DNA from: Egibacter rhizosphaerae
GTDB taxonomy: Bacteria; Actinomycetota; Nitriliruptoria; Euzebyales; Egibacteraceae
Direction of reading: 5' to 3'
DNA: 64,000 bases
Assembly: GCF_004322855.1 (NCBI RefSeq)
Contig: NZ_CP036402.1
Coordinates: forward strand, 2,604,001 to 2,668,000
The notes beneath the pieces are model-generated. The model searched no databases, had not been told where the DNA came from, and was given only the letters and a program-made list of their open reading frames with translations. The number at the start of each line of letters is the position of its first letter. Position 1 is the stretch's first letter. Below are positions 11,367-25,390 of this stretch, piece by piece. The position numbers were made by a program, and so were the translations under genes.

Positions 11367-11690
11367 CTACGCCTCGCCCCGGCCGCTGGGATCGGGCGCG
11401 CCGACCAGCTCCGCGAGGCCGTTGTCGCACAGCTGTTGTGCGTAGCCGATCAGATCGCGGGCGACGACCTCGGGGTCCTCGTCGAACTCGCCGGCGAGCG
11501 CGGTGGCGAGGTCGCGCAGCGTCGTCCGCCCGTCGAAGCAGTGCCACAGCCCCGCGGCGAGCGGTTCGAGCTTGTGGGTCGTGCCGTGGTCGGTGGAGTG
11601 GATGACCAGCTCGCCGTCGAGCTCGACGTGGGCGAGGTCGTCGCGGCGCCGGATCACCGTGTCGAGATCGATCCCGGGCGCGCCCGTCAT
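11367..11690 (-). CDS. PqqD-like (RRE) protein
   Basis: The 107-residue protein shows the PqqD fold pattern: a short beta-hairpin region (AHVELDGELVIHSTDHGTTH), then GLWHCFDGRTTLRDLATALA and a helix ending at the QQLCDNGLAEL segment. PqqD-like domains are RiPP recognition elements that bind leader peptides for the modifying enzyme. No pqq genes are nearby, so a role in PQQ synthesis is unlikely. It lies 2 bases after the HprK-like gene and 7 bases before the GT2 gene. Together with 23854-24117 and the PqqD domain at 15082-15861 it is one of three PqqD domains in the locus. Confidence 0.75.
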   Translation of the reverse strand: MTGAPGIDLDTVIRRRDDLAHVELDGELVIHSTDHGTTHKLEPLAAGLWHCFDGRTTLRDLATALAGEFDEDPEVVARDLIGYAQQLCDNGLAELVGAPDPSGRGEA

Positions 11691-11692
11691 CG

Positions 11693-12601
11693 CTACTCAC
11701 CCTTCCGGTCCGTCGCGTCCCCGGCCCACAGCGATTCGACCGCCTCGCAGCCCGCGTCGAGGTCGCTCAAGGTCACACGATAGCCCGCGCTGGTGGCGGC
11801 GAGGCGCCCGAGCACCGCGAGGTCACGCTCTGGGGCGAACTCGAACGCGCACCGGGTGAGCTCGAGCAACGTGTCCGCGCGCGAGATCGGCTCGACGGAG
11901 GTCGCCGCACCGGGCTCGTAGCTCGGGAACACCACCAGCCGTGGCTGTCCGCCCGCCGAGACCGCGTCGGCGCGGATCGTCTCGGGCGCGACCTGCCACT
12001 GCTTGGGCAAGCGCTCGGCCAGACCGGGGGGGTGCCCCGGGTTGAGGTCGGCGAGGACCTCCCACGAGCCGGGGTCGATCGCCAGCGGCTTCGGGTACGG
12101 GTGCACGGCCAGGGTGTCCGGGTCGAGGGCGATCGCCTCGTCGGTGACGTAGCGCCAGCCACGACGCACGAGCCCGGCGACGAGCGTGGACTTGCCGGCC
12201 TCGATGCGTCCGGGGAGCACGAGCACGTGGCCGTCCCGCTCCGCTCCCGAGGCGTGCAGGCGGACGAGGTGGGAACTGTCCTCGACCGCCCGCCGGTTCA
12301 CGTGCCACAGCAGCATCGCCACCGCTCCAGCCATGGAGCGCTGCCGCTCGATCACCTCGCCGTCGCGGTGCAGCGCCGCCCGCCCGTCGGCGGTGGGCCG
12401 CAGCTCGTAGCGCACCGCCGGTTGTCCCGACGTCGCGATCGGATCCGGGATCGCGAGTGCCCCGAACGCGCGGTCGAGGTGGGCGATGAGCTCGTGGTCG
12501 GGGCTCGCGACCGAGAAGTCGTGAGCGAGCGCGCGCAGACGGCGCGTCTCGTGCCATCCGCCGGGGGCGCGGCCTTTGGCGGGCGCGCGCGAGCCGATCA
12601 T
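11693..12601 (-). CDS. HprK-like P-loop kinase 1
   Basis: The 302-residue protein has the layout of HPr kinase-related proteins in RiPP clusters: a variable N-terminal part, a VRLHASGAERDG block, then a Walker A loop GRIEAGKST (about residues 128-137) and YVTDEAIALD as the Walker B-like acidic segment. The N-terminal HPr-binding half of true HprK is not recognisable, so a role in sugar catabolite control is unlikely. Related kinases phosphorylate lasso peptides or act on unknown partners beside PqqD proteins. Its start overlaps the VanZ-like gene by ATGA and its stop is 2 bases before the PqqD gene. Confidence 0.75.
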   Translation of the reverse strand: MIGSRAPAKGRAPGGWHETRRLRALAHDFSVASPDHELIAHLDRAFGALAIPDPIATSGQPAVRYELRPTADGRAALHRDGEVIERQRSMAGAVAMLLWHVNRRAVEDSSHLVRLHASGAERDGHVLVLPGRIEAGKSTLVAGLVRRGWRYVTDEAIALDPDTLAVHPYPKPLAIDPGSWEVLADLNPGHPPGLAERLPKQWQVAPETIRADAVSAGGQPRLVVFPSYEPGAATSVEPISRADTLLELTRCAFEFAPERDLAVLGRLAATSAGYRVTLSDLDAGCEAVESLWAGDATDRKGE

Positions 12602-14128: not shown

Positions 14129-15085
14129 TCACTGGCGTGCTCTCGCGAGCCCGGCGAAGTCTTCGCGTACTCGCTTGGCTAACGTTCCTGGTTCAACGGC
14201 GTGGGTGACGCGCCTCATCGGCACGGCTCCGGCCACGTGCGTGAGCGTCGCGAGACGCTCGGGGCGCACTCCCGCGCCATCGACGTAGCTCCCGACGAAC
14301 GAGTGCCGCAGCAGTTCGCGCATGACGTCCGCTCCCGCCAGGGGAGTGACCTCGATACCTCCCTCGTCGATGCGCGGATCGCGTTCGAGCACGTAGAGCG
14401 CTCGGAGCGGCCGAGACCGGGGGAGGTGGGTACCGAACCCGTCGCCCCCGACCGGCACTCGCCGTTTGGAGTAGAGGGGATGCGCGAGCCTGAAGTCGTC
14501 GGGGTCGCCAAACTCGCGGGCGACGTCGTCGGGCCACAATCGCAACTGTGGGTAGCCGGGTCCCGCGACCACGTGGCCACCATCGGCGCGTAGCGGCGTG
14601 ATGTCGTCACTCAGCAAGGCGTGACCCGCGCGGAGCAACTCCACGGCGAGCGAGGTTTTCCCCCCTCCGTTCGTGCTGGCGATGGCGACGGCTCCCTCGC
14701 CGGCCGTGATGGACGCGGCGTGGAGCGCAATCTCGCCCTGCAGCTCCAACCAGAAGGCCATCACCGGCCCGAGGAGTCGCAGTTCGGCCAGCCACGGCAC
14801 GTCGATGTCACGCAGGTGGCAGACGACGCGGTCGGGCCAGAGGTAGAAGTCGGCCACCTTGCTGAACCGCAGCAGGTAGGCCTCCCCGGCCCGATGCACG
14901 TAGGCGAAGTGCACGCCGTCGATCACGGGTGGTTGCGCATGCAGGACGGGCCCGAGATTGGGTACGTCGGGGGTCCCGGTGGTCAGGTGGTAGGTGAGAT
15001 CGGGGGCCTCGGTGCTCGGAACCAGCGGCGTGGTGAACGGCACCTCCGTGGCCACGGTGCGCCCGAACAGGTGGAACGTCCTCAT
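14129..15085 (-). CDS. HprK-like P-loop kinase 2
   Basis: This 318-residue member of the HPr kinase-related group has a beta-rich N-terminus (HLFGRTVATEVPF onward), a GEIALHAASITAGEG block, Walker A ASTNGGGKTS (about 133-142) and HALLSDDITPL as the acidic partner. It also has a long C-terminal half with RRVPVGGDGFGTHLPRSRPL. The ATG at 15085 overlaps the stop of the PRTase-PqqD gene by ATGA, so it is coupled to the A1 precursor operon. By analogy with paeninodin-type kinases it may phosphorylate a RiPP, but A1 does not end in Ser, so its substrate is uncertain. Confidence 0.8.
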   Translation of the reverse strand: MRTFHLFGRTVATEVPFTTPLVPSTEAPDLTYHLTTGTPDVPNLGPVLHAQPPVIDGVHFAYVHRAGEAYLLRFSKVADFYLWPDRVVCHLRDIDVPWLAELRLLGPVMAFWLELQGEIALHAASITAGEGAVAIASTNGGGKTSLAVELLRAGHALLSDDITPLRADGGHVVAGPGYPQLRLWPDDVAREFGDPDDFRLAHPLYSKRRVPVGGDGFGTHLPRSRPLRALYVLERDPRIDEGGIEVTPLAGADVMRELLRHSFVGSYVDGAGVRPERLATLTHVAGAVPMRRVTHAVEPGTLAKRVREDFAGLARARQ

Positions 15086-15861
15086 CGGAATGCCTCGGCG
15101 GGGACCCCAACGAGGTACCCATCGTCGGCCAGCCGCGCGGCGAAGCCGGCGAGGTCGCCGGCGACGATGGTCGGCGATGCGTCGAACTGCTCTGCGACAC
15201 GCGCGGTGGCTCGCCTGAGGTCGCCGGTGGTGAGCAGGGCCTCCCACATCGCGCGTGCGGAACCGTCCAGCGCGATCGAGCGCCCCGACGCCGCGTCAGC
15301 AATGATGAGGTGCTCGTGGACCTCGCTGAACACGACGCCGGGTGCGGCGGCCACAGGCCCGGGTCCGATCGGCTGGACCTGCACGGCGACGCGCGGCGGT
15401 CCGAGGCGGCGGTTCGAGAAGCACAGGCCCGCGGGCAGCAGTCGCCATCCGGGTTCGATCCTCTCGGTCACCGGATTCCAGATCGGCGTGTCAGGTTCCT
15501 TCCAGGCGAAGCTGACCGGCTGAGTGTCGCCCATCCAGTAGCGTTCGGCGTTCGTCCGCTCGGTCCACAGGATGCGGCGAGCCTCGGTGTCGGTGGGCCG
15601 CGCGGTGAGGTCGCGCGCCGCGAGGCAGGCCTCGACACGGGGTTCGGCGCGCTCGATCGCAGCGCGGAGATCGGGATGCGAGCACAGGTGCGCGAAAGCT
15701 ATCCGTGGGGCCTTGACCGCAGCGAGGAACTTCCCGAACCGGTACCCAGTCAGTGCGCTGTCGTCGACCACCACCGTGAGGGACTGCGCGTCGGGGGCGT
15801 GCGGCTCGGGGATCGAGGAGCCCACCGCGGTATGTGGCAAGTCGAACGCTTGCGCGAGCAT
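15082..15861 (-). CDS. Phosphoribosyltransferase C-terminal half fused to PqqD domain (downstream ORF of a frameshifted gene)
   Basis: The 259-residue frame starts at an internal ATG, MLAQAFDLPHTAV. It has the PRPP-binding loop of type I phosphoribosyltransferases, LTVVVDDSALTG (about 28-39), then a RYWMGDTQPVSFAWKEPD region. From about residue 175 it has a PqqD-like domain (VFSEVHEHLIIADAASGRSI, then GSARAMWEALLTTGDLRRAT and ADDGYLVGV). The PqqD part may supply leader binding for the A1 precursor, whose gene lies upstream in the same transcription unit. Taken alone it lacks the N-terminal PRTase segment, which is encoded in another frame (see the frameshift entry). A stop/start ATGA overlap couples it to HprK-like kinase 2. 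Confidence 0.6.
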   Translation of the reverse strand: MLAQAFDLPHTAVGSSIPEPHAPDAQSLTVVVDDSALTGYRFGKFLAAVKAPRIAFAHLCSHPDLRAAIERAEPRVEACLAARDLTARPTDTEARRILWTERTNAERYWMGDTQPVSFAWKEPDTPIWNPVTERIEPGWRLLPAGLCFSNRRLGPPRVAVQVQPIGPGPVAAAPGVVFSEVHEHLIIADAASGRSIALDGSARAMWEALLTTGDLRRATARVAEQFDASPTIVAGDLAGFAARLADDGYLVGVPAEAFR

Positions 15862-16289
15862 GCCGAGTACGATGTGCCCCCTCGGGGTACCGCGACGAAT
15901 CTGGCGGTCTCCAGCGCCGGGCCGAACCGTCGGCGCAGCGCATCAGCCAATCGCTCGACGTCACGTTCCGCGTCCGCGTAGGTCAAGTGGAGCAGGCGAG
16001 TGAGCCGGTCGTCGAGTGCGTTGGCGAGCGTGGCGAAGCGTGCGGCGCAGGCGTCGTCGATGTCGCCGAGCAGCCCGATGGCGGGGTTGGTGCCTCCCCG
16101 CAGGACGATGGTCGCTGTCTGGTGCGCGTCCCACGATGGATGGGAAGCGATGCTCCGCACCGCCCCGAGCAGGAATCTGTCGCGGGCGAGGCCTGCCGTG
16201 ACAGATTGTGATCCATCGGCCGGTGAGGCCCCGGCGACGAGTTGGTGAACCAGCGCCGCCGGGCGGGGCGAGGGTAGTCGGGTGATCAG
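15082..16289 (-). pseudogene. Frameshifted PRTase-PqqD fusion gene (two reading frames)
   Basis: From 16289 down to about 15880 a first frame encodes about 135 residues ending FVAVPRGG. The coding character then moves to a second frame that continues HIVLGMLAQAFDL and runs to 15082. The break lies at a run of five C on the plus strand (15877-15881). One extra base there would give VAVPRGGHIVLGML, a normal PRTase sequence, and one protein of about 402 residues. The first frame would run to a stop at 15750 with no matching sequence. No ATG/GTG start is clear at the 5' end, and a CTG overlaps the A1 stop codon as CTGA. This is either a sequencing error, a real mutation or a programmed slip; I cannot tell which. 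Confidence 0.65.
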
Positions 16290-16450
16290 CCCTGGCCGGG
16301 TGGGCACTGCCCCGTGCTGCCGTGGAAGTCGTTGTCGCCCGCCGAGCACATGAAGTCGTCCGAGCTGCTCGTGTTGCCCATGCCGGCTGTTACGTCGACG
16401 ACCGTTCCCCATTCGGTGATTGTCGGAGCAGCGTACGCCTGGTTGCTCAT
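16286..16450 (-). CDS. Lasso peptide precursor A1
   Basis: A 54-residue peptide with the lasso leader pattern Y6-x2-P9-x-I11-x3-G15-x5-T21. The Thr is at position -2 before the predicted cleavage site, and the core starts with Gly23. The core has 32 residues: GMGNTSSSD at the start would allow a nine-residue ring between Gly1 and Asp9. Cys13 and Cys27 in the tail could form a disulfide. The core ends CPPGQG. The ATG at 16450 has GAGGCGGGA before it, and longer in-frame extension is non-conserved. The gene lies divergent from cyclase C1 and directly upstream of the PRTase-PqqD gene. The lasso product itself is predicted, not shown. Confidence 0.85.
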   Translation of the reverse strand: MSNQAYAAPTITEWGTVVDVTAGMGNTSSSDDFMCSAGDNDFHGSTGQCPPGQG

Positions 16451-16495
16451 GTCCCGCCTCTCGAGTGGCCCGACTGCCGGAATCGTGATTGACGC

Positions 16496-16524
16496 AGTGT
16501 AGTCTGCGCTCGCCATCTGAACAA
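16496..16524 (-). promoter_or_regulatory. Putative promoter of lasso precursor A1 operon
   Basis: Read on the minus strand, TTGTTC (16524-16519) and TACACT (16501-16496) are 17 bases apart. This leaves a 5' leader of about 40 bases to the ATG at 16450. It lies between the divergent precursor and cyclase genes. Confidence 0.55.
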
Positions 16525-16628
16525 GCGTACTGTGGCCCGAGTCTGCTAGGACTGAGGCAATAGTGAGGTGGCCGTGGGATTGCCGTCCGCGAGGAGAGGT
16601 TGCTACAGCGAGTCAGGTCCGTCGTGTC

Positions 16629-17789
16629 ATGAGAGCCCATGACCAACTCGTGCGGATGACGCCTCAGGAGATCGCCACCGGCTGGCCCACGGGACGTGAA
16701 CCCGTGTCGGTGCCGGATCCCCGCCTCGCTCACCGTCCTCCCCGCGAGGTGCTCGAGGCGCTCATTCTGCCGGCGCTCACCGAGCAGCCGTGCCTGGTGG
16801 GATTCTCGGGCGGTCGGGACTCCTCCGCGGTGCTCGCGGTTGCGACGGATCTCGCCCGAAGTCGCGGCCTACCCGACCCCGTCCCCATGACCCGCCGCTA
16901 TCCCGGTGACGCGCTGGCCGACGAGGACGCCTGGCAGGAGCTCGTCATCCGGCATCTCGGTCTCACCGAGTGGGAGCGGATCGACGTCATCGACGAGCTC
17001 GATCTACTCGGCGAGCGTGCGATCGCTGCGCTGCGTCGCTACGGGCAGCTGTGGCCACCGATGCACTACGTCAACCTCTGGATGCTCGATCACGCGCGCG
17101 GTGGGGCCTACCTGACCGGGCAGGGCGGTGATGAAGTCCTCGGGAGCCATCGGCTCGCGCCGATCCGAGCCGTCGCCGGACAGGGCCTGCGGGTGAACCG
17201 CCGGACACTGCGCCGTGCGGCGGGCGCCGCCGCACCGAACCGAGTGCGGGGCTGGTGGGCCCGCCGTAGGCCGGATCCCTCGGTGGCGCCGCCGTGGCTC
17301 CGCGCCGAACTCGCGACCGCGCACCATGCTGCGGTGCTCGCCGACCACGCCAAGGAGCCGCTGCGCGCCGACCGGTCGATCCGCTGGCAGCTGGGCTTCC
17401 GCGCCGTGGGGATGGCGTTCCGCAACCTCGACCTTCTCGCCGCCGAGCGGGACGTGCGGGTCCGGCACCCGCTACTCGATCCCTCGTTTGCTGCGGCGAT
17501 GGGCCGTACGTGGGGCTGGCGCGGCCCGCGCGACCGGACAGAGGCCCTGCGGTGGCTGGTCGGCGATCTCCTGCCGGAGGCCGTGTGCGCGCGCCTCAGC
17601 AAGGCGGCGTTCAACACCGCATTGTTCGGTCCGGCCAGCCGAGCGTTCGTCGAGCAGTGGGACGGCAGCGGCGTCGACACCACCCTCGTCGACCCGGAGG
17701 AGCTGAGGCAGACATGGACGAGCGATTTCCCGCACGGGGGAAGCTTCGCGCTGCTGCAGCAAGCTTGGTTGCACCAGGACGGGCGGTGA
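16629..17789 (+). CDS. Lasso cyclase C1 (asparagine-synthetase-like, single domain)
   Basis: Lasso cyclases activate an Asp or Glu side chain with ATP and join it to the N-terminal Gly of the core. The 386-residue protein has the ATP-pyrophosphatase loop VGFSGGRDSSAVLAVA (SGGRDSS about 59-65), the LTGQGGDEVLGSHR block typical of the synthetase domain, and RVRHPLLDPSFAAAMG. The N-terminal glutaminase-like domain present in asparagine synthetase B and most lasso C proteins is absent. The ATG at 16629 is chosen because it aligns with C2 (both read MTPxEIA soon after). An in-frame GTG at 16563 would add 22 unlike residues. It is transcribed away from precursor A1 and towards the APH-like gene. 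Confidence 0.82.
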   Translation: MRAHDQLVRMTPQEIATGWPTGREPVSVPDPRLAHRPPREVLEALILPALTEQPCLVGFSGGRDSSAVLAVATDLARSRGLPDPVPMTRRYPGDALADEDAWQELVIRHLGLTEWERIDVIDELDLLGERAIAALRRYGQLWPPMHYVNLWMLDHARGGAYLTGQGGDEVLGSHRLAPIRAVAGQGLRVNRRTLRRAAGAAAPNRVRGWWARRRPDPSVAPPWLRAELATAHHAAVLADHAKEPLRADRSIRWQLGFRAVGMAFRNLDLLAAERDVRVRHPLLDPSFAAAMGRTWGWRGPRDRTEALRWLVGDLLPEAVCARLSKAAFNTALFGPASRAFVEQWDGSGVDTTLVDPEELRQTWTSDFPHGGSFALLQQAWLHQDGR

Positions 17790-17817: not shown

Positions 17818-17895
17818 GTGGACATCGGCGGATGCTCGGTGCCCAACCTTGCGGATGAGGCCGGTGCGGACGGCTCGGTCGGGGGATGGCGATGA
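17818..17895 (+). CDS. Possible 25-residue peptide overlapping the APH-like kinase start
   Basis: GGAAGG lies 7 bases before a GTG, which opens a 25-codon frame beginning MDIGGCSVPNLADEAG. Its TGA overlaps the internal ATG of the next gene as ATGA (17892-17895). The arrangement is that of a translational-coupling leader or a very small protein. The peptide has one Cys and no lasso leader pattern. Existence rests only on ribosome site and overlap. Confidence 0.3.
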   Translation: MDIGGCSVPNLADEAGADGSVGGWR

Positions 17896-18695
17896 AGCGT
17901 GCGGGTCCGCTATGGGCGCATCGTGAGCCGCACGCGGCCTTCCTGGCCGCCGAGCGGATCGCCGTCATCCAGATGCCGCGCAACGAGGTCGGTCGCGAGC
18001 GAATTCGCCGGAAAGTCCACGGCGCTCGTGCTGCCGCCCGCGATCCGGTGTGGGCCGACTTGGTGGTAGTCAATCATCGCGCCCCCGGCGGGGCCACTTG
18101 GGCGCCGTGGGTCGCTCCCGTGCCCGGTGACGCCGTGGCTGCGGGGGCGGCACGCCTCCTGGACCGCCTGTGGGAAAGCGCGTCCAGTGCCCCGCGGGTG
18201 TCGGCGCACGAGGTGGTGGACCTCTCGAGGGTCCGGGGCCCCACGGTGCGCCTGCCGCTTGCCGAGGCTAGCTGGCAGCAGTACGAGCGCGCCCTGCGGC
18301 GCGTCGCGGTGCCGCGCACCTCGGCCCACGGCGATCTGCGTCAGGAAAACCTCGCGCAGCGGCGGGACGGGTCGTTCGCCATCATCGACTGGGAGTCGTA
18401 CGAGCCCGTATCCTCACTTGCGTTCGATCTCCTGCACTTCCACCTGGAGTCGCAGCGGCGGTTGGGTGCACCGCACTGGGGCGTGCTCGTCGAGCATGGG
18501 TTGCGGCTGCCCCCAGTAACCCTCTTGGCGCAGAGACTCGGTGTCTGCCCGCCCGACCTCTTGGCGGCGTACTCCGTGAATCGGGCGGCACGGACGATGC
18601 GGCTGTTCTCGGGCCCGGAGGCTGCGGTTCCGGAGGCGCGGCGTCAGCGCACGACGGAGATCCTCGAGTCGCTCACCGCCGTGCTGGCCGTGTGA
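17886..18695 (+). CDS. Aminoglycoside phosphotransferase-like kinase in the lasso locus
   Basis: The 269-residue protein has the APH/choline-kinase catalytic core in its C-terminal half: TSAHGDLRQENLAQ (HGD near residue 147, Asn as Mg ligand), then FAIIDWESYEPVSSLAFDLL. The N-terminal nucleotide-binding lobe is short and hard to recognise. The substrate could be a peptide, sugar or small molecule. Its position directly after cyclase C1 (about 96 bases) argues for tailoring or self-protection within the lasso locus rather than antibiotic resistance. ATG 17886 or 17892 are both possible starts. Confidence 0.72.
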   Translation: MAMKRAGPLWAHREPHAAFLAAERIAVIQMPRNEVGRERIRRKVHGARAAARDPVWADLVVVNHRAPGGATWAPWVAPVPGDAVAAGAARLLDRLWESASSAPRVSAHEVVDLSRVRGPTVRLPLAEASWQQYERALRRVAVPRTSAHGDLRQENLAQRRDGSFAIIDWESYEPVSSLAFDLLHFHLESQRRLGAPHWGVLVEHGLRLPPVTLLAQRLGVCPPDLLAAYSVNRAARTMRLFSGPEAAVPEARRQRTTEILESLTAVLAV

Positions 18696-18766: not shown

Positions 18767-20533
18767 TCACCTTGCGGGTGTTACCCCGGCAGGGTCGGTG
18801 GCGTCGGGCGGCGGTGCTTGTGGGTCCAGCGGTGCGATGCGGTGCACGTGATCGGCGACCTGGGTGAGCGCCGGCTGGTGGCTGATGGCCAGGATGGTAA
18901 CCGAACCCCGCAGACCCCGGACGGTGCGCAGAACCGCCTGCTCGGTTTCGGGGTCGAGCGCCGTGGTCGCCTCGTCCAGCACGAGTAGCTGCGGCCGACG
19001 GACCAGCGCGCGGGCAATCGACACGCGTTGGCGCTGGCCCCCGGATAGTCGCGTGCCGTGCTCGCCGATCACGGTGTCGAGCTGCTCGGGCAAGGTGGCG
19101 ACGAAGTCCCCGGCGCCCGCGGCCTCCAGCGCCTCCCAGACGTCCTCGTCCGTGAGCTCGTCGTCGTACATCGCGACGTTCGCGCGGACGCTGTCGTGGA
19201 AGAGCACGACCTCCTGGGGTACGTACCCGATGCGTTCGCGCCAGGCATGCAGATCGGCCTGCTCGAGCGGCAGGTCGTCCACGTAGACCTCGCCGGCGTC
19301 GGGTCGGTACAGGCCGGTGACGAGGTCGACGATCGTCGTCTTACCGGCGCCCGAAGGACCGAGCAGAGCCGTGAGCTCACCCGCGGGGATTCGCAGGTTG
19401 TAGGCCCCCAAGACCCGGGTCTGGCCATAGGCGAAGTCCACCTCGCGAAGCTCGACGGCCTCGCGCAGTTCGGGCGCGCGGCCGTGACGCTTCGGCGCCT
19501 CCGCCTCCGCCTCGGCGGCGTCGATCGACTCCTCGATGGACCAGAGCGCGCTCTCGATCGACGCCAGCGATTGCCAGTGCTTCTGAAGGCCGCCGATCTT
19601 GCGCACGGTGCGCTGGAAGATCAGGGCGAGGAAGAGCAGCTCGGTGAACGGCAGGCCGAGGACCGACAGGAAGACGTAGGCGATGATCGCGAGAAAGAAC
19701 GCGATCAACGGCTCTTGCGCCACGCCCATGGCGGACGTCGCGACGACCTGGCGGCGTTGCGCGTGGTTGAGTTCCTCGGTCTCTCGCTGGAGCGCTGGTT
19801 GCAGGCTGTCCTCGCGACCCATGGCCTTCAGCGGCTTGATGGCATAGAGACCGTCGGTCAGCCGCGCGATGAGGCTGCGCAGCAGTGCGGTTTGCTCCCG
19901 GCCGGCCTGTCGAGCGATCGAGACGAGCCGTCGCAGGCTGACCACCATCAAGGACCCGAGAAGGATCGACAACAGGGCGATCTGCCAGGAGACCGCGAAA
20001 GCGATGCCCACATAGATCACGAGCGTGAAGCCGCCCGCCAGGAGGTCGGTAGTCCGAGGGAACAGCGAGGAAGCCCGCATGGCTTCGCTCGCGACCGCGT
20101 TCGACAGCCGCCCGGTGGGTTGCTGGACGTAGAAGCCCCAGCGGGCGCGCATCATCGCGTTGATGAGCCGCATCCGCAGGTCCCGGGCCGCGAGGGCTGA
20201 CGCGGCCCCGGCGTGCCACTGGGAAGCCAGGCGCAGGCCCGCCTTCGCCGTCAGCGCGAGGACCATGAACGCCAGTAGCAGCCCGAGCGTCGGAGACAGC
20301 CCGACGACGTCCAGCGCGCCCTCCACGAAGGCGGCGAGTTCGGGGGACGGCTGGGTCTCCGCCTCCGCGGCCAGCCCCAGCAGCGGGAGCAGTACGACCA
20401 GGCCGATCCCCTCGGCCAGACCGGACGCCAGGGCGAGCGCGACGAGGATCACGGAGCGACGGGGATACTGCTTCAATATCCCGACGATGGCGCTGACCGT
20501 GGTTCGGTCGGTGCGCGTGTCCAGGTCGCTCAT
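18767..20533 (-). CDS. Lasso peptide ABC exporter D (fused TMD-NBD)
   Basis: The 588-residue half-transporter has about six membrane helices in residues 20-310 (for example SVILVALALASGLAEGIGLV and LIAFFLAIIAYVFLSVLG). A nucleotide-binding domain follows with Walker A LLGPSGAGKTT (about 389), signature LSGGQRQRVSIARAL (about 494), Walker B LLVLDEATTALD (about 514) and switch His in ISHQPAL. In lasso clusters the D protein exports the mature peptide and gives self-immunity. The ATG at 20533 overlaps the B2 stop as ATGA; an upstream in-frame ATG would run through the B2 gene. It is the only exporter in the locus, so it probably serves both peptides. Confidence 0.88.
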   Translation of the reverse strand: MSDLDTRTDRTTVSAIVGILKQYPRRSVILVALALASGLAEGIGLVVLLPLLGLAAEAETQPSPELAAFVEGALDVVGLSPTLGLLLAFMVLALTAKAGLRLASQWHAGAASALAARDLRMRLINAMMRARWGFYVQQPTGRLSNAVASEAMRASSLFPRTTDLLAGGFTLVIYVGIAFAVSWQIALLSILLGSLMVVSLRRLVSIARQAGREQTALLRSLIARLTDGLYAIKPLKAMGREDSLQPALQRETEELNHAQRRQVVATSAMGVAQEPLIAFFLAIIAYVFLSVLGLPFTELLFLALIFQRTVRKIGGLQKHWQSLASIESALWSIEESIDAAEAEAEAPKRHGRAPELREAVELREVDFAYGQTRVLGAYNLRIPAGELTALLGPSGAGKTTIVDLVTGLYRPDAGEVYVDDLPLEQADLHAWRERIGYVPQEVVLFHDSVRANVAMYDDELTDEDVWEALEAAGAGDFVATLPEQLDTVIGEHGTRLSGGQRQRVSIARALVRRPQLLVLDEATTALDPETEQAVLRTVRGLRGSVTILAISHQPALTQVADHVHRIAPLDPQAPPPDATDPAGVTPAR

Positions 20534-21129
20534 TGGTCGGAGATCCTTATGCCGGCCGGGATGTCGTGCGCCTGCTGCGATCCCCGATGAGGTGATGGCG
20601 TCTGGGTTACGCCGGCGGTGGATGGCGTGCCGAAGGCGTGGAACTCCTCTGACAGGCGGAGGGGTCGACCGTCGACCTCGACCCAGGCGTGCGCGGCGAG
20701 CTCGTCTCCGACTCGGCGGATGCCGAGGCGTGTCGTGGCGTTCCAGCGGTGGAGGAGTCGGCAGGCGACGAAGGACTCCCGGAGACATGGCCCTCGACCG
20801 AAGGGCCACAGCCGGGCGACACGAACGACGGCTTGGTGGCGGCGCTCTGCCCGAGGTGGGAGTGGGGGTGGGTCGCGGTCGGTCGCCACGGCCCCGGACG
20901 CCCCCTGTAGGTCGAGGGGCACGCCGAGCAGCCGGGCGGCGCGGCGCAATGGCAGCACGCGGACGACGACTTCTGCCAGGGAGAACTCGGCCAGTGCTCG
21001 GAGCGTCAGCAAGTTCTCGCGCAGCGAGCGTCGCGCGGTCCGCCGCAGCATGCGAAGGACGCGTCGGCGAGCACGCCGGCTCACCCGGGGAAGCAGCCGC
21101 GCCGAGCGGCCCCCGTGGTTTGAGCCCAT
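20530..21129 (-). CDS. Lasso peptide B2 leader peptidase (transglutaminase-like)
   Basis: The 199-residue protein matches lasso B2 proteins, Cys proteases of the transglutaminase fold that remove the leader. An N-terminal helix pattern ALAEFSLAEVVVRVLPLRRA is typical. The catalytic Cys lies in GPCLRESFVACRLL, His in ELAAHAWVEV and Asp in VDGRPL. The ATG at 21129 is preferred because GGGAGG precedes it by 6 bases; an upstream ATG at 21174 lacks one. It is 76 bases after the HprK-like gene and overlaps the ABC exporter. It is the only B2 in the window, so it would need to process both A1 and A2. Confidence 0.85.
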   Translation of the reverse strand: MGSNHGGRSARLLPRVSRRARRRVLRMLRRTARRSLRENLLTLRALAEFSLAEVVVRVLPLRRAARLLGVPLDLQGASGAVATDRDPPPLPPRAERRHQAVVRVARLWPFGRGPCLRESFVACRLLHRWNATTRLGIRRVGDELAAHAWVEVDGRPLRLSEEFHAFGTPSTAGVTQTPSPHRGSQQAHDIPAGIRISDQ

Positions 21130-21205
21130 CCCTCGCCTCCCGTCGTTCCTGCGGTCCATCCTTCTTGGCGTCATCCGAATCTCGCCGATGCGCTCACGAC
21201 GAGGC

Positions 21206-22177
21206 TTACGCGGCCATCAGATCCAACAGTCGTTCCCCGAGGTCGTCCCGGAAGGGTGGGCCCCACGGGACGGTGGCGACCAACACGCGAACCGAACGGG
21301 CGATCACGCCTGCGCCGTCGAACTGCCGTTGGACTACGTGGGGTTCGAGCAGGCCGTTCACACGGGGGAAGTTGATGAGACGGAACATCGCTCCCGCCGT
21401 GGGCATCAACTCGGCCGTGAGTTCCTCCGCGTTCCGGCTCGGGCGCGGGATGACGAGGGTGTCGAGCGGCACCGAGTCCTGCGAGGTCAACGGGGGCACG
21501 ACCGCGTCCCGCCCGTCCGGCATGGTGATGCGGTCGGCGTTCGGCAGGCGGTCGAGCAGGGAAACCGAGCCCTTGCGCAGCCGGATGGCCACGTTGCCCG
21601 CGAGGCACCGAGGACCGTCATCGTTCTCGACGACGAGCACGTCCTCGGCGATGTGCCGCGCACCCGCGGCGCAACTGGCGATGGCGAGCGTCGACTTGCC
21701 CATGCCGGAGTGGCCGACAAACGCGAGCGCCCGCCCGCCCGCCTCAACGGCACTGGCATGCAGGACCAACGCACCGCGTACTGACGCGATGAAAGCCAAG
21801 GTCGTACCCGCGAGCAGGACGTCGACGAGCCCGTCGTCGGCATTGTGGTCCCGTTGGTACTCCACCCGACTGAGATCGGGGGAGACGTGAACATCGCAGT
21901 GGTTGAAGAAGCGCAGCAGGTAGCCGTCCTCGCGGCGGGCTCCCGCGTAGAATCGCCGATGCCCTTCACCAGGGTCGACGACGGGCTCCCCCTCGGGGAA
22001 CCGGTCACCTACGGCGGTTCGGGGCCCGGCGAGGAAGTCGACCTCGGCAGGGTCCTCTGTGGTTCGGGCGGGTAGCCCCGGCAAGGGGTGGTCGCTGCTG
22101 ATGTTCAGACCACACGAGCGGTACGCATAGCTCGTTCGAGCCGCTCGCGACCACTGTTCGTCGCCGACCTGGTGCAC
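21206..22177 (-). CDS. HprK-like kinase 3, candidate lasso peptide kinase
   Basis: The 323-residue protein has the HPr-kinase-related order: RGALVLHASAVEAGG, Walker A FVGHSGMGKSTLA (about 152-162), and RHIAEDVLVVEND as the acidic segment. PadeK and ThcoK, which phosphorylate the C-terminal Ser of paeninodin-type lasso peptides, belong to this family. The gene sits in one minus-strand unit with B2 and the exporter and is divergent from cyclase C2, whose precursor A2 ends in Ser. That context makes A2 the likely substrate. The start is uncertain: GTG 22177 is chosen because earlier in-frame codons would overlap cyclase C2, but no strong ribosome site is visible. Confidence 0.8.
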   Translation of the reverse strand: MHQVGDEQWSRAARTSYAYRSCGLNISSDHPLPGLPARTTEDPAEVDFLAGPRTAVGDRFPEGEPVVDPGEGHRRFYAGARREDGYLLRFFNHCDVHVSPDLSRVEYQRDHNADDGLVDVLLAGTTLAFIASVRGALVLHASAVEAGGRALAFVGHSGMGKSTLAIASCAAGARHIAEDVLVVENDDGPRCLAGNVAIRLRKGSVSLLDRLPNADRITMPDGRDAVVPPLTSQDSVPLDTLVIPRPSRNAEELTAELMPTAGAMFRLINFPRVNGLLEPHVVQRQFDGAGVIARSVRVLVATVPWGPPFRDDLGERLLDLMAA

Positions 22178-22240
22178 AGGGGCTGATCGACTCGATTCCC
22201 GCGCTCGCTCAGTCAAGGTCTCCCCCGTACCCTTGCTCCG

Positions 22241-23425
22241 ATGCAGACCGGAGACGATGTGTTGTATCGGATGACGCCACTCGAGATCGCTCGGGGCTTC
22301 GTGCTCGACGACGACCCGGCTCGGCGTGTCCGTCCCGCCTCCTCGCCCCCGCCCGACCCCAGAACTGTACTCGAAGAGTGTCTTCTCAGGGCGCTCGAGT
22401 ATCAACCCTGCGTAGTGGCGTTCTCCGGCGGGCGCGATTCGTCCGTGCTGCTCGCGCTCGCGGTTCGGGTCGCACGTCGGGAGGGGGTGCCGCTGCCCGT
22501 TCCGGTCACCCGGCGGTTCCCACGGTTCGAGGACACGCGAGAGGACGAGTGGCAGGAACTAGTGATTCAGCATTTGGGGGTTGAAGAGTGGGTCCGAGTC
22601 GATCTCGACGACGACGCCCTCGACCTGATCGGCCCGGTGGCCGGCCCTCGCGTCCGCGAACATGGCGTGCTGTGGCCGCCGCTTCTGCACCAGGACGAAC
22701 CCGCCGTCGCGCACGCGCTCGGGGGGGCCGTGATCGACGGCGAGGGCGGCGACCAGGTCTTCGGCCTCGACATTCACCGAATCGCCCCGCTCGTTCTCGC
22801 CCACCGGTTCCCGCGCTATCGTGCGATGCGCCGACTCCCGGGTGTAGCGGCTGCCCTGGTCCCCGACCCAGGACAGCGCGCCGTGAGCTACCACCGTCTC
22901 CGTACGCTCGAGGCGGAGATGCCGTGGCTCCGGGAGGCAGCAATGGCCGACCTGCGACGCGACCTGGCGCGAGAGCACGGTGCGCTGCCGCTGCGGTGGG
23001 ACCAGAGCATCCGTGGACTGTTGCATCACCGCGCTCGCCGACTGGGCCTGGGCAACCGCACGGAGCTGGCACGGCGTCGAAGGGTCGAGTACATCCATCC
23101 ATTCCTGGAACCTCGGTTCCTCGAATCGCTGGCCCGCGCGGGCGGGCCGACGAGCCTGGGGCCCCGTTCGGAGGCAATGACCTCGTTGTTCTCCGATCTG
23201 CTGCCGCGCGCGGTGCTCCGGCGCCGCACGAAGGCTTCCTTCAACCCCGTCGTGCACGGTCGCTTCAGCCGCGAGTTCGCGGAGCAATGGGATGGCTCGG
23301 GGGTGGATGAACGACTCGTTGATCTGGACCGCCTGCACGAGGAGTGGCGGAGCCCCGCGCCGAACGGTCGGACGCACGCCCTCCTACAAGCGGCATGGCG
23401 GCACAGCCAGTTAGGCTCGGCATGA
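22241..23425 (+). CDS. Lasso cyclase C2 (asparagine-synthetase-like, single domain)
   Basis: The 394-residue paralogue of C1 has the ATP-pyrophosphatase loop VAFSGGRDSSVLLALA (about 61-67), the GEGGDQVFGLDIHR block, and RVEYIHPFLEPRFLES. It lacks the N-terminal amidotransferase-like domain, as C1 does. The ATG at 22241 opens with MQTGDDVLYRMTPLEIARGF, matching C1. Precursor A2 lies 183 bases downstream on the same strand behind its own promoter, and HprK-like kinase 3 diverges from it. It should close the Gly1-Asp ring of A2. Confidence 0.83.
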   Translation: MQTGDDVLYRMTPLEIARGFVLDDDPARRVRPASSPPPDPRTVLEECLLRALEYQPCVVAFSGGRDSSVLLALAVRVARREGVPLPVPVTRRFPRFEDTREDEWQELVIQHLGVEEWVRVDLDDDALDLIGPVAGPRVREHGVLWPPLLHQDEPAVAHALGGAVIDGEGGDQVFGLDIHRIAPLVLAHRFPRYRAMRRLPGVAAALVPDPGQRAVSYHRLRTLEAEMPWLREAAMADLRRDLAREHGALPLRWDQSIRGLLHHRARRLGLGNRTELARRRRVEYIHPFLEPRFLESLARAGGPTSLGPRSEAMTSLFSDLLPRAVLRRRTKASFNPVVHGRFSREFAEQWDGSGVDERLVDLDRLHEEWRSPAPNGRTHALLQAAWRHSQLGSA

Positions 23426-23480
23426 GGTGGGAAGGTCGTCCTGTTGCATCCACGACCCCGCTCTGCTGCTTCGACAACGT

Positions 23481-23496
23481 GATCCTTGACAGGATC
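23481..23496 (+). promoter_or_regulatory. Inverted repeat over the -35 box of the A2 promoter
   Basis: GATCCT-TGAC-AGGATC is a perfect 6-bp inverted repeat with a 4-base spacer, and it covers the -35 hexamer TTGACA of the A2 promoter. This is a natural place for a repressor site. Confidence 0.4.
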
Positions 23497-23514
23497 TGAC
23501 CGGCAGCCTAGGTT
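23486..23514 (+). promoter_or_regulatory. Promoter of lasso precursor A2
   Basis: A consensus -35 TTGACA (23486-23491) and TAGGTT (23509-23514) are separated by 17 bases, placing the transcript start near 23521 and leaving a leader of about 88 bases before the GTG at 23609. It is one of the two best promoter matches in the window. Confidence 0.65.
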
Positions 23515-23608
23515 ACGTCCTGTAGCGAGCTCGTCCGGCAAGGATGCTCGTGACGAACGAGTAGGCGGGACGTGTACATGTGCGCGTTCCACGAGCATCG
23601 AGGTAGCT

Positions 23609-23740
23609 GTGAAGGCATACGAGACTCCCAGCATTACCGAACTGGGCTCGGTCGCGGCGATGACCCGCGGCGAGGGTGTCAAGGGCGACGACGACACACT
23701 CGCGTGGTTCATCAAGTACGGGACTGACCCCACGTCGTAG
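23609..23740 (+). CDS. Lasso peptide precursor A2 (C-terminal Ser)
   Basis: A 43-residue peptide from GTG, with GAGG 6 bases upstream. The leader has Y4-x2-P7-x-I9-x3-G13-x5-T19, identical in spacing to A1, and Thr at -2. The predicted core of 23 residues starts GEGVKGDDDT, so ring closure from Gly1 could use Asp8 or Asp9 (Asp7 is also present). The tail holds WFIKY, with bulky residues suited to plugging the ring, and ends GTDPTS. A C-terminal Ser is the site used by lasso peptide kinases, and an HprK-like kinase lies in the same locus. A strong terminator follows immediately. Confidence 0.88.
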   Translation: MKAYETPSITELGSVAAMTRGEGVKGDDDTLAWFIKYGTDPTS

Positions 23741-23754
23741 CTCGACCGAGGTAG

Positions 23755-23790
23755 GCGAAGGGCCCGCGCCGACTGGCGCGGGCCCTTCGC
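23755..23790. terminator. Strong hairpin between A2 and the convergent PqqD gene
   Basis: A perfect 16-bp stem (23755-23770 with 23775-23790) closes a GACT loop. There is no U-tract, as is common in GC-rich actinobacteria. It lies 14 bases after the A2 stop and 63 bases from the stop of the convergent PqqD gene, so it can serve both directions. Confidence 0.8.
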
Positions 23791-23853
23791 TTGCGCGGGT
23801 TTCGCGTGGTCGGCGCATTGGCCATTGGCCTAACCGATAGCCCAGCCTATGGG

Positions 23854-24117
23854 TCAGGCGTCCTCGATCAGATCACGTGTCCGCAGGTCCCCGAGGAACG
23901 CCTCCACATCGGCGCGGGCCTGGGCCTCATCGACATCGTAGTTCCCGGTCAATTCGGCAACGAGCTCATCGACGGTGGCGGGCTGTTGCAGCCGCTCCCA
24001 CAGCACGCGCCCGGTGCCGTTGACGCGGAAGTACACGGACCCGTCGAGATCCAGCACCACAACGTCGTCGTCGACGACCTGCCAGCTAAGGCCGCTGTCG
24101 CGGAGCTTCATCGCCAT
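23854..24117 (-). CDS. Lasso B1 / PqqD-like RiPP recognition protein
   Basis: The 87-residue protein has the RRE (PqqD) pattern: SGLSWQVVDDDVVVLDLDGS forms the first strands, followed by YFRVNGTGRVLWERLQ, PATVDELVAELTGNYDVDEA and AFLGDLRTRDLIEDA. B1 proteins bind the conserved leader residues (Tyr, Pro, Gly) and present the precursor to the B2 peptidase and the cyclase. The start is taken at ATG 24117, with GAAGGG 8 bases upstream; ATG 24111 or 24168 are alternatives. It is convergent with A2 and follows the nucleotidyltransferase gene. Confidence 0.82.
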   Translation of the reverse strand: MAMKLRDSGLSWQVVDDDVVVLDLDGSVYFRVNGTGRVLWERLQQPATVDELVAELTGNYDVDEAQARADVEAFLGDLRTRDLIEDA

Positions 24118-24169
24118 CCTCGTAACCCTTCCCCGGGGCGCGGGCCTGCTCTTGTCAGCGAGGTTCATG

Positions 24170-25390
24170 CTACCGGTCGGCGGTGCTTATGGCCTTCTGG
24201 GGCTCCGATTCCATGGAGTGTTGAGCGACGCGCCGGAGGAAGGCTTCCTGGGCCGCTGCACCCCCGGACTCGTAGCGATCCGACCCCGGATGATCCACGG
24301 GTAGACGGGCGGTCGGGGCTTCGTCCTCAGCCTCGCTCCGCCCGCGCCAGTGGGCCACGGCCTTCCGTGCCAGTTCCGCCCCGCTCGCGGTACCGCTGCC
24401 ACGAGTAGCGCGTGACAGAAGCCGCCCCCACGACGGGCCCCCGTCCTCGGCTTCGGCGGGGGCCGCCGCGAAGGCCGCGGAGGAGAGGCGGAGCCACATC
24501 CGTGGACCCACACCGCGGGTCCGCAGGGTGCGTGCTGCCGGAGGGCAGCCGATGCTCCGGTCGACGCGCTGCAATGCGGTGGCGAGAACGAGGCCGGCAC
24601 GCCAGCGCCGAGCGGTCTCCCCGATCTCCGTCGCGCTCGCCAAGGGGTTCTCCAGGAGGCGCTCGAGGTCCTTCAGCCAGACGAGGCGATGCCCCCCCGA
24701 CATCACCGCGTGCATGGCCACGTACACGATGGTGTCGGCCGCGCCGAGTGTGGGCACTTCGATACCGCCCACCGGGACGGTGCGCATCCGGGAGAATAGG
24801 TCAGCCATTGGGACGCGGAACTGCTTGCGCACGGCGTTGTCGTTGATGAGATGCCAGTGCACGTCTCCGGTGAGACCGCTGGGAAGCCGGACGTGCACCT
24901 CGCCCTTGAGCGAATCCCGGATCAGGGTCCAGTTCCGGTCGCGGACCTCAGCACCGTGCGCTTCGAGCGTGTCGAGCGCGTCGCCCAATCCGGCCCCGGG
25001 GACGACGAGGTCGAGATCCCCGTATGCTCGTAGGTCGACGCGTCCGTGAACGGGCTCCCCCAGAACTGGGCCTTTGATCGCCAACCATGGGATGCTCGCC
25101 TGCTCGAACGCGGTCATCACCGTTCGCAGATCGGAGAGCGCGCGAAGATGCGTGACAACGGTCCGGTCCATGGTGAGCTTGAGGCGCTCGCGTTCCAAGT
25201 GGGGGAGTTCGTCGCGATCACCGACCGCGCGGTACACGTACCCACCAACTCCGTGGAAGAAGGCGGCTTCCGCCAGGCCCTCAAGTTCGGCGGGGCTAGC
25301 GAACGTCAGCACGTCGTCGATGCTGGGGCCGACGCCCGGGCGCGCGACGCTCGCACGCAACAGGCGAGCGATGGTCCTGTTGAGCGCCAT
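24170..25390 (-). CDS. Nucleotidyltransferase-like protein (NTP_transf_5 family) of the lasso locus
   Basis: The 406-residue protein carries the nucleotidyltransferase block WLAIKGPVLGEPVHGRVDLR followed by AYGDLDLVVPGAG, with the acidic GDLDL site, at about residues 100-135. Further helical regions fit the PF14907 family. Such proteins recur beside HprK-like kinases, PqqD proteins and lasso genes, but the reaction is not established in general. It may add a nucleotide to the phosphorylated peptide or modify a cluster protein. The C-terminal 90 residues are low-complexity and acidic. It is cotranscribed with the B1 gene, separated by about 50 bases. Confidence 0.8.
   Translation of the reverse strand: MALNRTIARLLRASVARPGVGPSIDDVLTFASPAELEGLAEAAFFHGVGGYVYRAVGDRDELPHLERERLKLTMDRTVVTHLRALSDLRTVMTAFEQASIPWLAIKGPVLGEPVHGRVDLRAYGDLDLVVPGAGLGDALDTLEAHGAEVRDRNWTLIRDSLKGEVHVRLPSGLTGDVHWHLINDNAVRKQFRVPMADLFSRMRTVPVGGIEVPTLGAADTIVYVAMHAVMSGGHRLVWLKDLERLLENPLASATEIGETARRWRAGLVLATALQRVDRSIGCPPAARTLRTRGVGPRMWLRLSSAAFAAAPAEAEDGGPSWGRLLSRATRGSGTASGAELARKAVAHWRGRSEAEDEAPTARLPVDHPGSDRYESGGAAAQEAFLRRVAQHSMESEPQKAISTADR

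Follow-up and report, generated by a model that had tools for sequence, protein, structure and literature searches.

Phosphorylated lasso peptides and the locus

The Actinobacterial phylum is rich in known lasso peptides. Phosphorylated lasso peptides, as they are described in reviews, come from Bacillota and Pseudomonadota. The genome of Egibacter rhizosphaerae (4.64 Mb, single contig) belongs to an actinobacterial class that also holds relatives of the present locus in the Nitriliruptoraceae (L020, L032), and it carries a lasso cluster in which an HprK-like kinase gene lies close to a precursor gene ending in a serine codon. The question raised by this locus is whether the kinase, here termed K2, phosphorylates the terminal serine of the precursor, A2. 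All coordinates refer to the window, the whole stretch of 64,000 nucleotides that was analyzed.

The lasso cluster and its precursor

Gene families and gene order delimit a complete lasso cluster at 18767-25390, which contains the following features.

18767-20533, minus strand: ABC exporter (PF00005, PF00664)
20530-21174, minus strand: B2, transglutaminase-like leader peptidase (NF033537, PF13471)
21206-22177, minus strand: K2, predicted HprK/PEPCK-fold kinase (HprK-related models, AlphaFold2 model, structure matches, K2 clade in tree)
21644-21646, minus strand: Glu178 codon (GAG) in K2; Asp in other aligned K2-type kinases (alignments)
22241-23425, plus strand: C2, Asn-synthase-type lasso cyclase without an N-terminal glutaminase domain (PF00733, relatives)
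23609-23740, plus strand: A2, lasso precursor (NF033521 leader model above cut-off; leader aligned with 25 relatives)
23735-23740, plus strand: TCG codon for the C-terminal Ser, which is predicted to be phosphorylated, followed by the TAG stop (sequence; Ser in 23 of 26 precursors linked to K2-type kinases)
23854-24168, minus strand: RRE (B1, PqqD-like; PF05402 at 2e-21, and lasso PqqD models)
24170-25390, minus strand: PF14907 nucleotidyltransferase, candidate for further phosphate modification (Pfam match)

The RRE (PF05402), B2 (NF033537) and cyclase (PF00733) genes together make up the lasso gene set, with B2 the sole copy in the whole genome. On the minus strand, K2, B2 and the exporter lie head to tail as one unit, and C2 starts 63 bp from K2 on the plus strand; gene order and strands thus bear out the initial annotation, which had placed the kinase in a unit with B2 and the exporter and divergent from the cyclase. 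Consensus scans of 22100-24000 returned no promoters or terminators.

Read from the GTG at 23609, A2 consists of the leader VKAYETPSITELGSVAAMTR and the predicted core GEGVKGDDDTLAWFIKYGTDPTS. It scores 22.1 bits against the lasso leader model NF033521 (cut-off 19) and has a YxxP leader, Thr at position -2 and an acidic residue at core position 7-9. Cleavage is predicted after Arg(-1), which places Thr at -2 and Asp at core positions 7, 8 and 9. The ring probably joins Gly1 to Asp9, the best fit to relatives, and the predicted product is a lasso peptide without cysteines, of the class II type. As the annotation had read it, the core ends in GTDPTS, with Ser23 as its predicted last residue and the TCG codon directly followed by TAG.

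Terminal serine in related clusters

To gather relatives, the cyclase alignment was run against some 85,000 species genomes, so that the sample was chosen by cyclase rather than by kinase. The 27 loci returned come from Pseudonocardiaceae, Acidimicrobiia, Nitriliruptoraceae and others, and a K2-type kinase is found in nearly all of those that are intact. On the kinase tree, K2 and 24 related kinases form one group (98/98 support), apart from the K1-type kinases discussed below. Counting the window and L103, 24 clusters had readable precursors, 26 in all; beside the kinase loci L043, L044 and L086 the precursor was unreadable.

Terminal serine occurs in 23 of these 26 precursors and in 11 of their 14 core groups, the last residue being by far the most conserved position of a tail that is otherwise variable. 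The three exceptions end in SF (L021), SG (L024) and ST (L041). The penultimate residue of each of these non-Ser-ending precursors is Ser. Leaving out L022, L023 and L026, whose kinases are only weakly K2-like, gives 20 of 23. The comparison group was composed of 60 loci around B2 genes from the family of genome G164, which we infer to be Streptomycetaceae, and an HMM search of these loci found no K2-like kinase. Terminal serine is present in 1 of their 31 clear precursors (the one being albusnodin-like) and in 1 of 19 core groups.

Terminal serine is thus found beside K2-type kinases more often than by chance. Fisher's test gives p = 1e-11 on raw counts (23/26 vs 1/31), p = 2e-5 after grouping of similar cores (11/14 vs 1/19) and p = 1e-4 when deep kinase lineages are counted (about 6/9), values that carry an imperfect control of ancestry and a comparison group from a different actinobacterial family. 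Part of the association is shared ancestry, most cases coming from Pseudonocardiaceae, and terminal serine is itself clustered on the kinase tree (7 changes against a shuffled mean of 10.1, with 12 of 500 shuffles as low). Phosphorylation nevertheless appears likely, because the pairing of kinase and terminal serine holds across many related bacteria.

A phosphate on Ser23 need not be the final modification. The PF14907 gene ends beside the start of the RRE gene (24168), as the initial annotation had noted. Similar genes are present in L020, L024, L032, L041, L043, L044 and L045, whereas many Ser-ending K2 clusters, several of them from Pseudonocardiaceae, have none within the examined flanks. 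By analogy with PsmK and PsmN, which offer a precedent, capping by the nucleotidyltransferase is plausible. A tentative extension of the phosphorylation reading, whose probability overlaps with it, would make the Ser23 phosphate an attachment point to which the PF14907 enzyme adds a hexose or nucleotide, with plain phospho-A2 as an intermediate. Against this extension, the gene could instead serve the second lasso set described below, and the chemistry of PsmN is itself unsettled.

Fold and active site of K2

K2 is a protein of 323 residues whose sequence matches to HprK-related models are weak (TIGR04355, 4.7e-10; PF07475, 1.8e-3). Sequence comparison with the PDB gave only chance matches to Runt proteins, a search of viral contigs found no relatives, and tblastn against plasmids returned 16 distant matches below 60% identity, mostly from Alphaproteobacteria. 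An AlphaFold2 model built on a 33-row alignment reached a mean pLDDT of 93. With this model Foldseek listed ATP-dependent PEPCK first, followed by HprK/P structures, and VIA-align gave a best Z of 17.7 against E. coli PEPCK, with an rmsd of 4.1 over 273 residues. The model thus gives K2 the HprK/PEPCK fold. PEPCK and HprK have this fold in common, and it therefore points to a kinase of the HprK/PEPCK superfamily rather than to a particular substrate.

According to a review (PMC9266682), lasso kinases share a conserved His-Lys-Asp-Asp motif, and mutation shows that ThcoK needs all four residues. In K2 the corresponding residues are His140-Lys161-Glu178-Asp179: the His, the Lys and the second Asp are present, and the first Asp is replaced. 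An alignment of 33 kinases shows no variation at His140, Lys161 or Asp179, and a motif alignment of 28 has Asp-Asp in every K2-type kinase except that of the window. The active residues of Enterococcus faecalis HPrK are His140, Lys161 and Asp179, the last being the proton acceptor/donor (PMC9399212), and each has a counterpart in K2 at equal spacing. Since the spacing from the P-loop Lys is the same (18 residues), HPrK Asp179 is taken as the second Asp, the one retained in K2. The change to Glu178 is accordingly taken to be conservative, lying beside rather than at the proton acceptor/donor, as far as the alignment indicates.

Because Glu178 departs from the published motif, activity of K2 is not to be taken for granted. 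It could be impaired or inactive, such that A2 leaves the cell unphosphorylated and its terminal serine is an inherited remnant. This would agree with the singular position of Glu178 among the aligned K2-type kinases, with the loss of ThcoK activity on motif mutation (PMC9266682) and with decay in the same island, where a frame of the second lasso set is broken. We regard it as unlikely: the rest of K2 is intact over its 323 residues with a confidently predicted fold, the other three motif residues are retained, A2 keeps its serine, and a cluster-borne kinase in L102 likewise has Glu-Asp. Tolerance of Glu178 is assumed, given that K2 retains Asp179 alongside His140 and Lys161. We hold phosphorylation of Ser23 by K2 to be the probable reading, with a confidence held down mainly by this one residue, which also makes K2 a natural experiment on the first catalytic Asp.

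Two further members of the kinase family were seen among the relatives. At L025:6667-7503, beside an intact K2-type kinase, lies a second kinase-like protein without the motif His and the P-loop Lys, a degenerate copy. At L014:10233-11387, a K2-clade kinase has a ThiF-rhodanese gene as its neighbor, and neither a lasso cyclase nor other lasso genes were seen nearby; kinases of this clade are thus also found outside lasso clusters.

A second lasso set in the same island

A second lasso set occupies 14129-17789 of the same island.

14129-15088, minus strand: K1, a second HprK-like kinase, in which His-Lys-Asp-Asp is complete; approximate start (model matches, motif alignment, tree)
15082-16190, minus strand: fusion of a phosphoribosyltransferase-like protein and an RRE, frame broken near 15876, start approximate (tblastn against intact relatives)
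16286-16447, minus strand: A1, lasso precursor with the core GMGNTSSSDDFMCSAGDNDFHGSTGQCPPGQG, ending in Gly (NF033521 over cut-off)
16563-17789, plus strand: C1, lasso cyclase, 45% identical to C2 (PF00733)

The phosphoribosyltransferase label is derived from a PF00156 match in L032 that falls below the Pfam threshold (4.8e-4) and a VVVDDSALTG-like motif recognized by eye. A tblastn comparison with the intact versions in L020, L032 and L183 shows that the frame of this fusion is broken near 15876 in the window; set 1 may thus have lost its function in this strain, unless the break stems from erroneous base calls. The single B2 of the genome must serve both A1 and A2, should both be processed. 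The same double layout is found in L015/L032, where one B2 was found, the A2-like precursor ends in LTFS beside a K2-type kinase and the A1-like precursor ends in GGLG beside a K1-type kinase. Between the two sets of the window lies a gene (17886-18695) with a weak Pfam match (TCAD9, 9e-4) that appears phosphotransferase-like by eye. A third HprK-like gene (11367-12601; TIGR04352 at 1.3e-32, below cut-off), beside a PqqD-like gene and a glycosyltransferase gene, probably represents an HPr-rel-A type system rather than a lasso one.

K1 and K2 fall into separate supported groups on the kinase tree, and their precursors differ in their ends. In clusters that hold K1 and the fusion, three cores end in Gly (window, L032, L183) and one in Ser (L020); in more distant K1-type clusters the core ends in Ser (L081) or Pro (L084, L085, L087). 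Reading a terminal serine from the presence of any HprK-like kinase in a lasso cluster was therefore rejected as a general rule, since the K1-type ends comprise three Gly, two Ser and three Pro. It is the K2 type that goes with terminal serine in most cases of the sequences compared. The proposal of the initial annotation, that the kinase phosphorylates the C-terminal serine as kinases of its family do for paeninodin-type peptides, thus gains from the K2-type association but is qualified by Glu178 and by K1-type kinases that are not tied to a terminal serine.

All four cores of the K1 and fusion clusters (window, L032, L183, L020) share an internal Gly-Ser at a single position of their alignment. 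It is conceivable, and quite doubtful, that two lasso peptides here share one B2 and have kinases with different site rules: K2 would cap the terminal serine of A2, and K1 with the RRE-fused phosphoribosyltransferase-like protein would modify the internal serine of A1-type cores, for example by phosphorylation and then ribosylation. If true, such internal modification by the K1 type would be a new lasso modification, and the paired set with its Gly-ending core makes kinase action away from a terminal serine directly testable. The least probable reading is cross-talk or an exchange in which K1, with its intact motif and an A1 that lacks a terminal serine, phosphorylates A2 while K2 has another role, a reading that the common B2 and the modest demands of known kinases beyond a C-terminal serine would permit but that sits poorly with one-kinase relatives, where the K2 type goes with Ser-ending precursors, and with the place of the K1 type and its fusion beside mostly Gly-ending A1-type cores.

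Proposed pathway

The characterized lasso kinases recognize a C-terminal serine with little other specificity, as the available accounts describe them (PMC8498205, PMC9266682). By analogy with PadeK, ThcoK and SyanK, K2 would phosphorylate Ser23 on the linear A2 precursor, reading little beyond that serine. The RRE would then present the A2 leader, B2 would cut it off after Arg(-1), C2 would close the ring from Gly1 to Asp9, and the ABC protein would export the product. On the model of PsmN in pseudomycoidin, the phosphate may receive a sugar or nucleotide from the PF14907 nucleotidyltransferase. Catalysis, the order of steps, topology, ring size and capping are all inferred. Since its first motif Asp is replaced, K2 is claimed to work like the PadeK/ThcoK/SyanK-type kinases without being a strict member of that type.

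Comparison with known systems

The closest parallels in logic are paeninodin (PadeA/PadeK, Paenibacillus dendritiformis) and ThcoA/ThcoK, which by their published descriptions also pair a Ser-ending precursor with an HprK-like kinase clustered with B1, B2, C and ABC genes. They differ, in a comparison of descriptions rather than alignments, in belonging to Bacillota, in retaining His-Lys-Asp-Asp and in having a single precursor set. In SyanA/SyanK of Sphingobium yanoikuyae, the common feature of the cores is again a C-terminal serine beside an HprK-like kinase, but the system is from Pseudomonadota, has been shown to carry out polyphosphorylation and has another gene order. The pseudomycoidin cluster of Bacillus pseudomycoides (PsmK, PsmN), as described, likewise combines a kinase with a nucleotidyltransferase-type gene; there the effect of PsmN, hexoses on the phosphate, was shown by heterologous expression, and the PF14907 gene is a putative counterpart.

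Within the actinobacteria, K2-type clusters of Pseudonocardiaceae (Amycolatopsis, Prauserella, Actinophytocola; L027-L042) resemble the present one in their truncated cyclase, K2-clade kinase, RRE, B2 and ABC genes. Their precursors end in YS or FS with cores different from that of A2, their kinases have the Asp-Asp motif, and no nucleotidyltransferase gene was seen nearby. Searches of the open-licence literature yielded no actinobacterial phosphorylated lasso peptide, no characterization of these Pseudonocardiaceae clusters and no demonstrated activity of an actinobacterial K2-clade kinase, a negative result confined to that literature.

An actinobacterial kinase clade tied to terminal serine in several families would extend lasso phosphorylation to that phylum. 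The present locus is a candidate actinobacterial variant of a modification established in Bacillota and Pseudomonadota; as read from its genes, it would be new in its kinase clade, its altered motif and its two precursor sets with one protease, and would follow the logic of known lasso phosphorylation.
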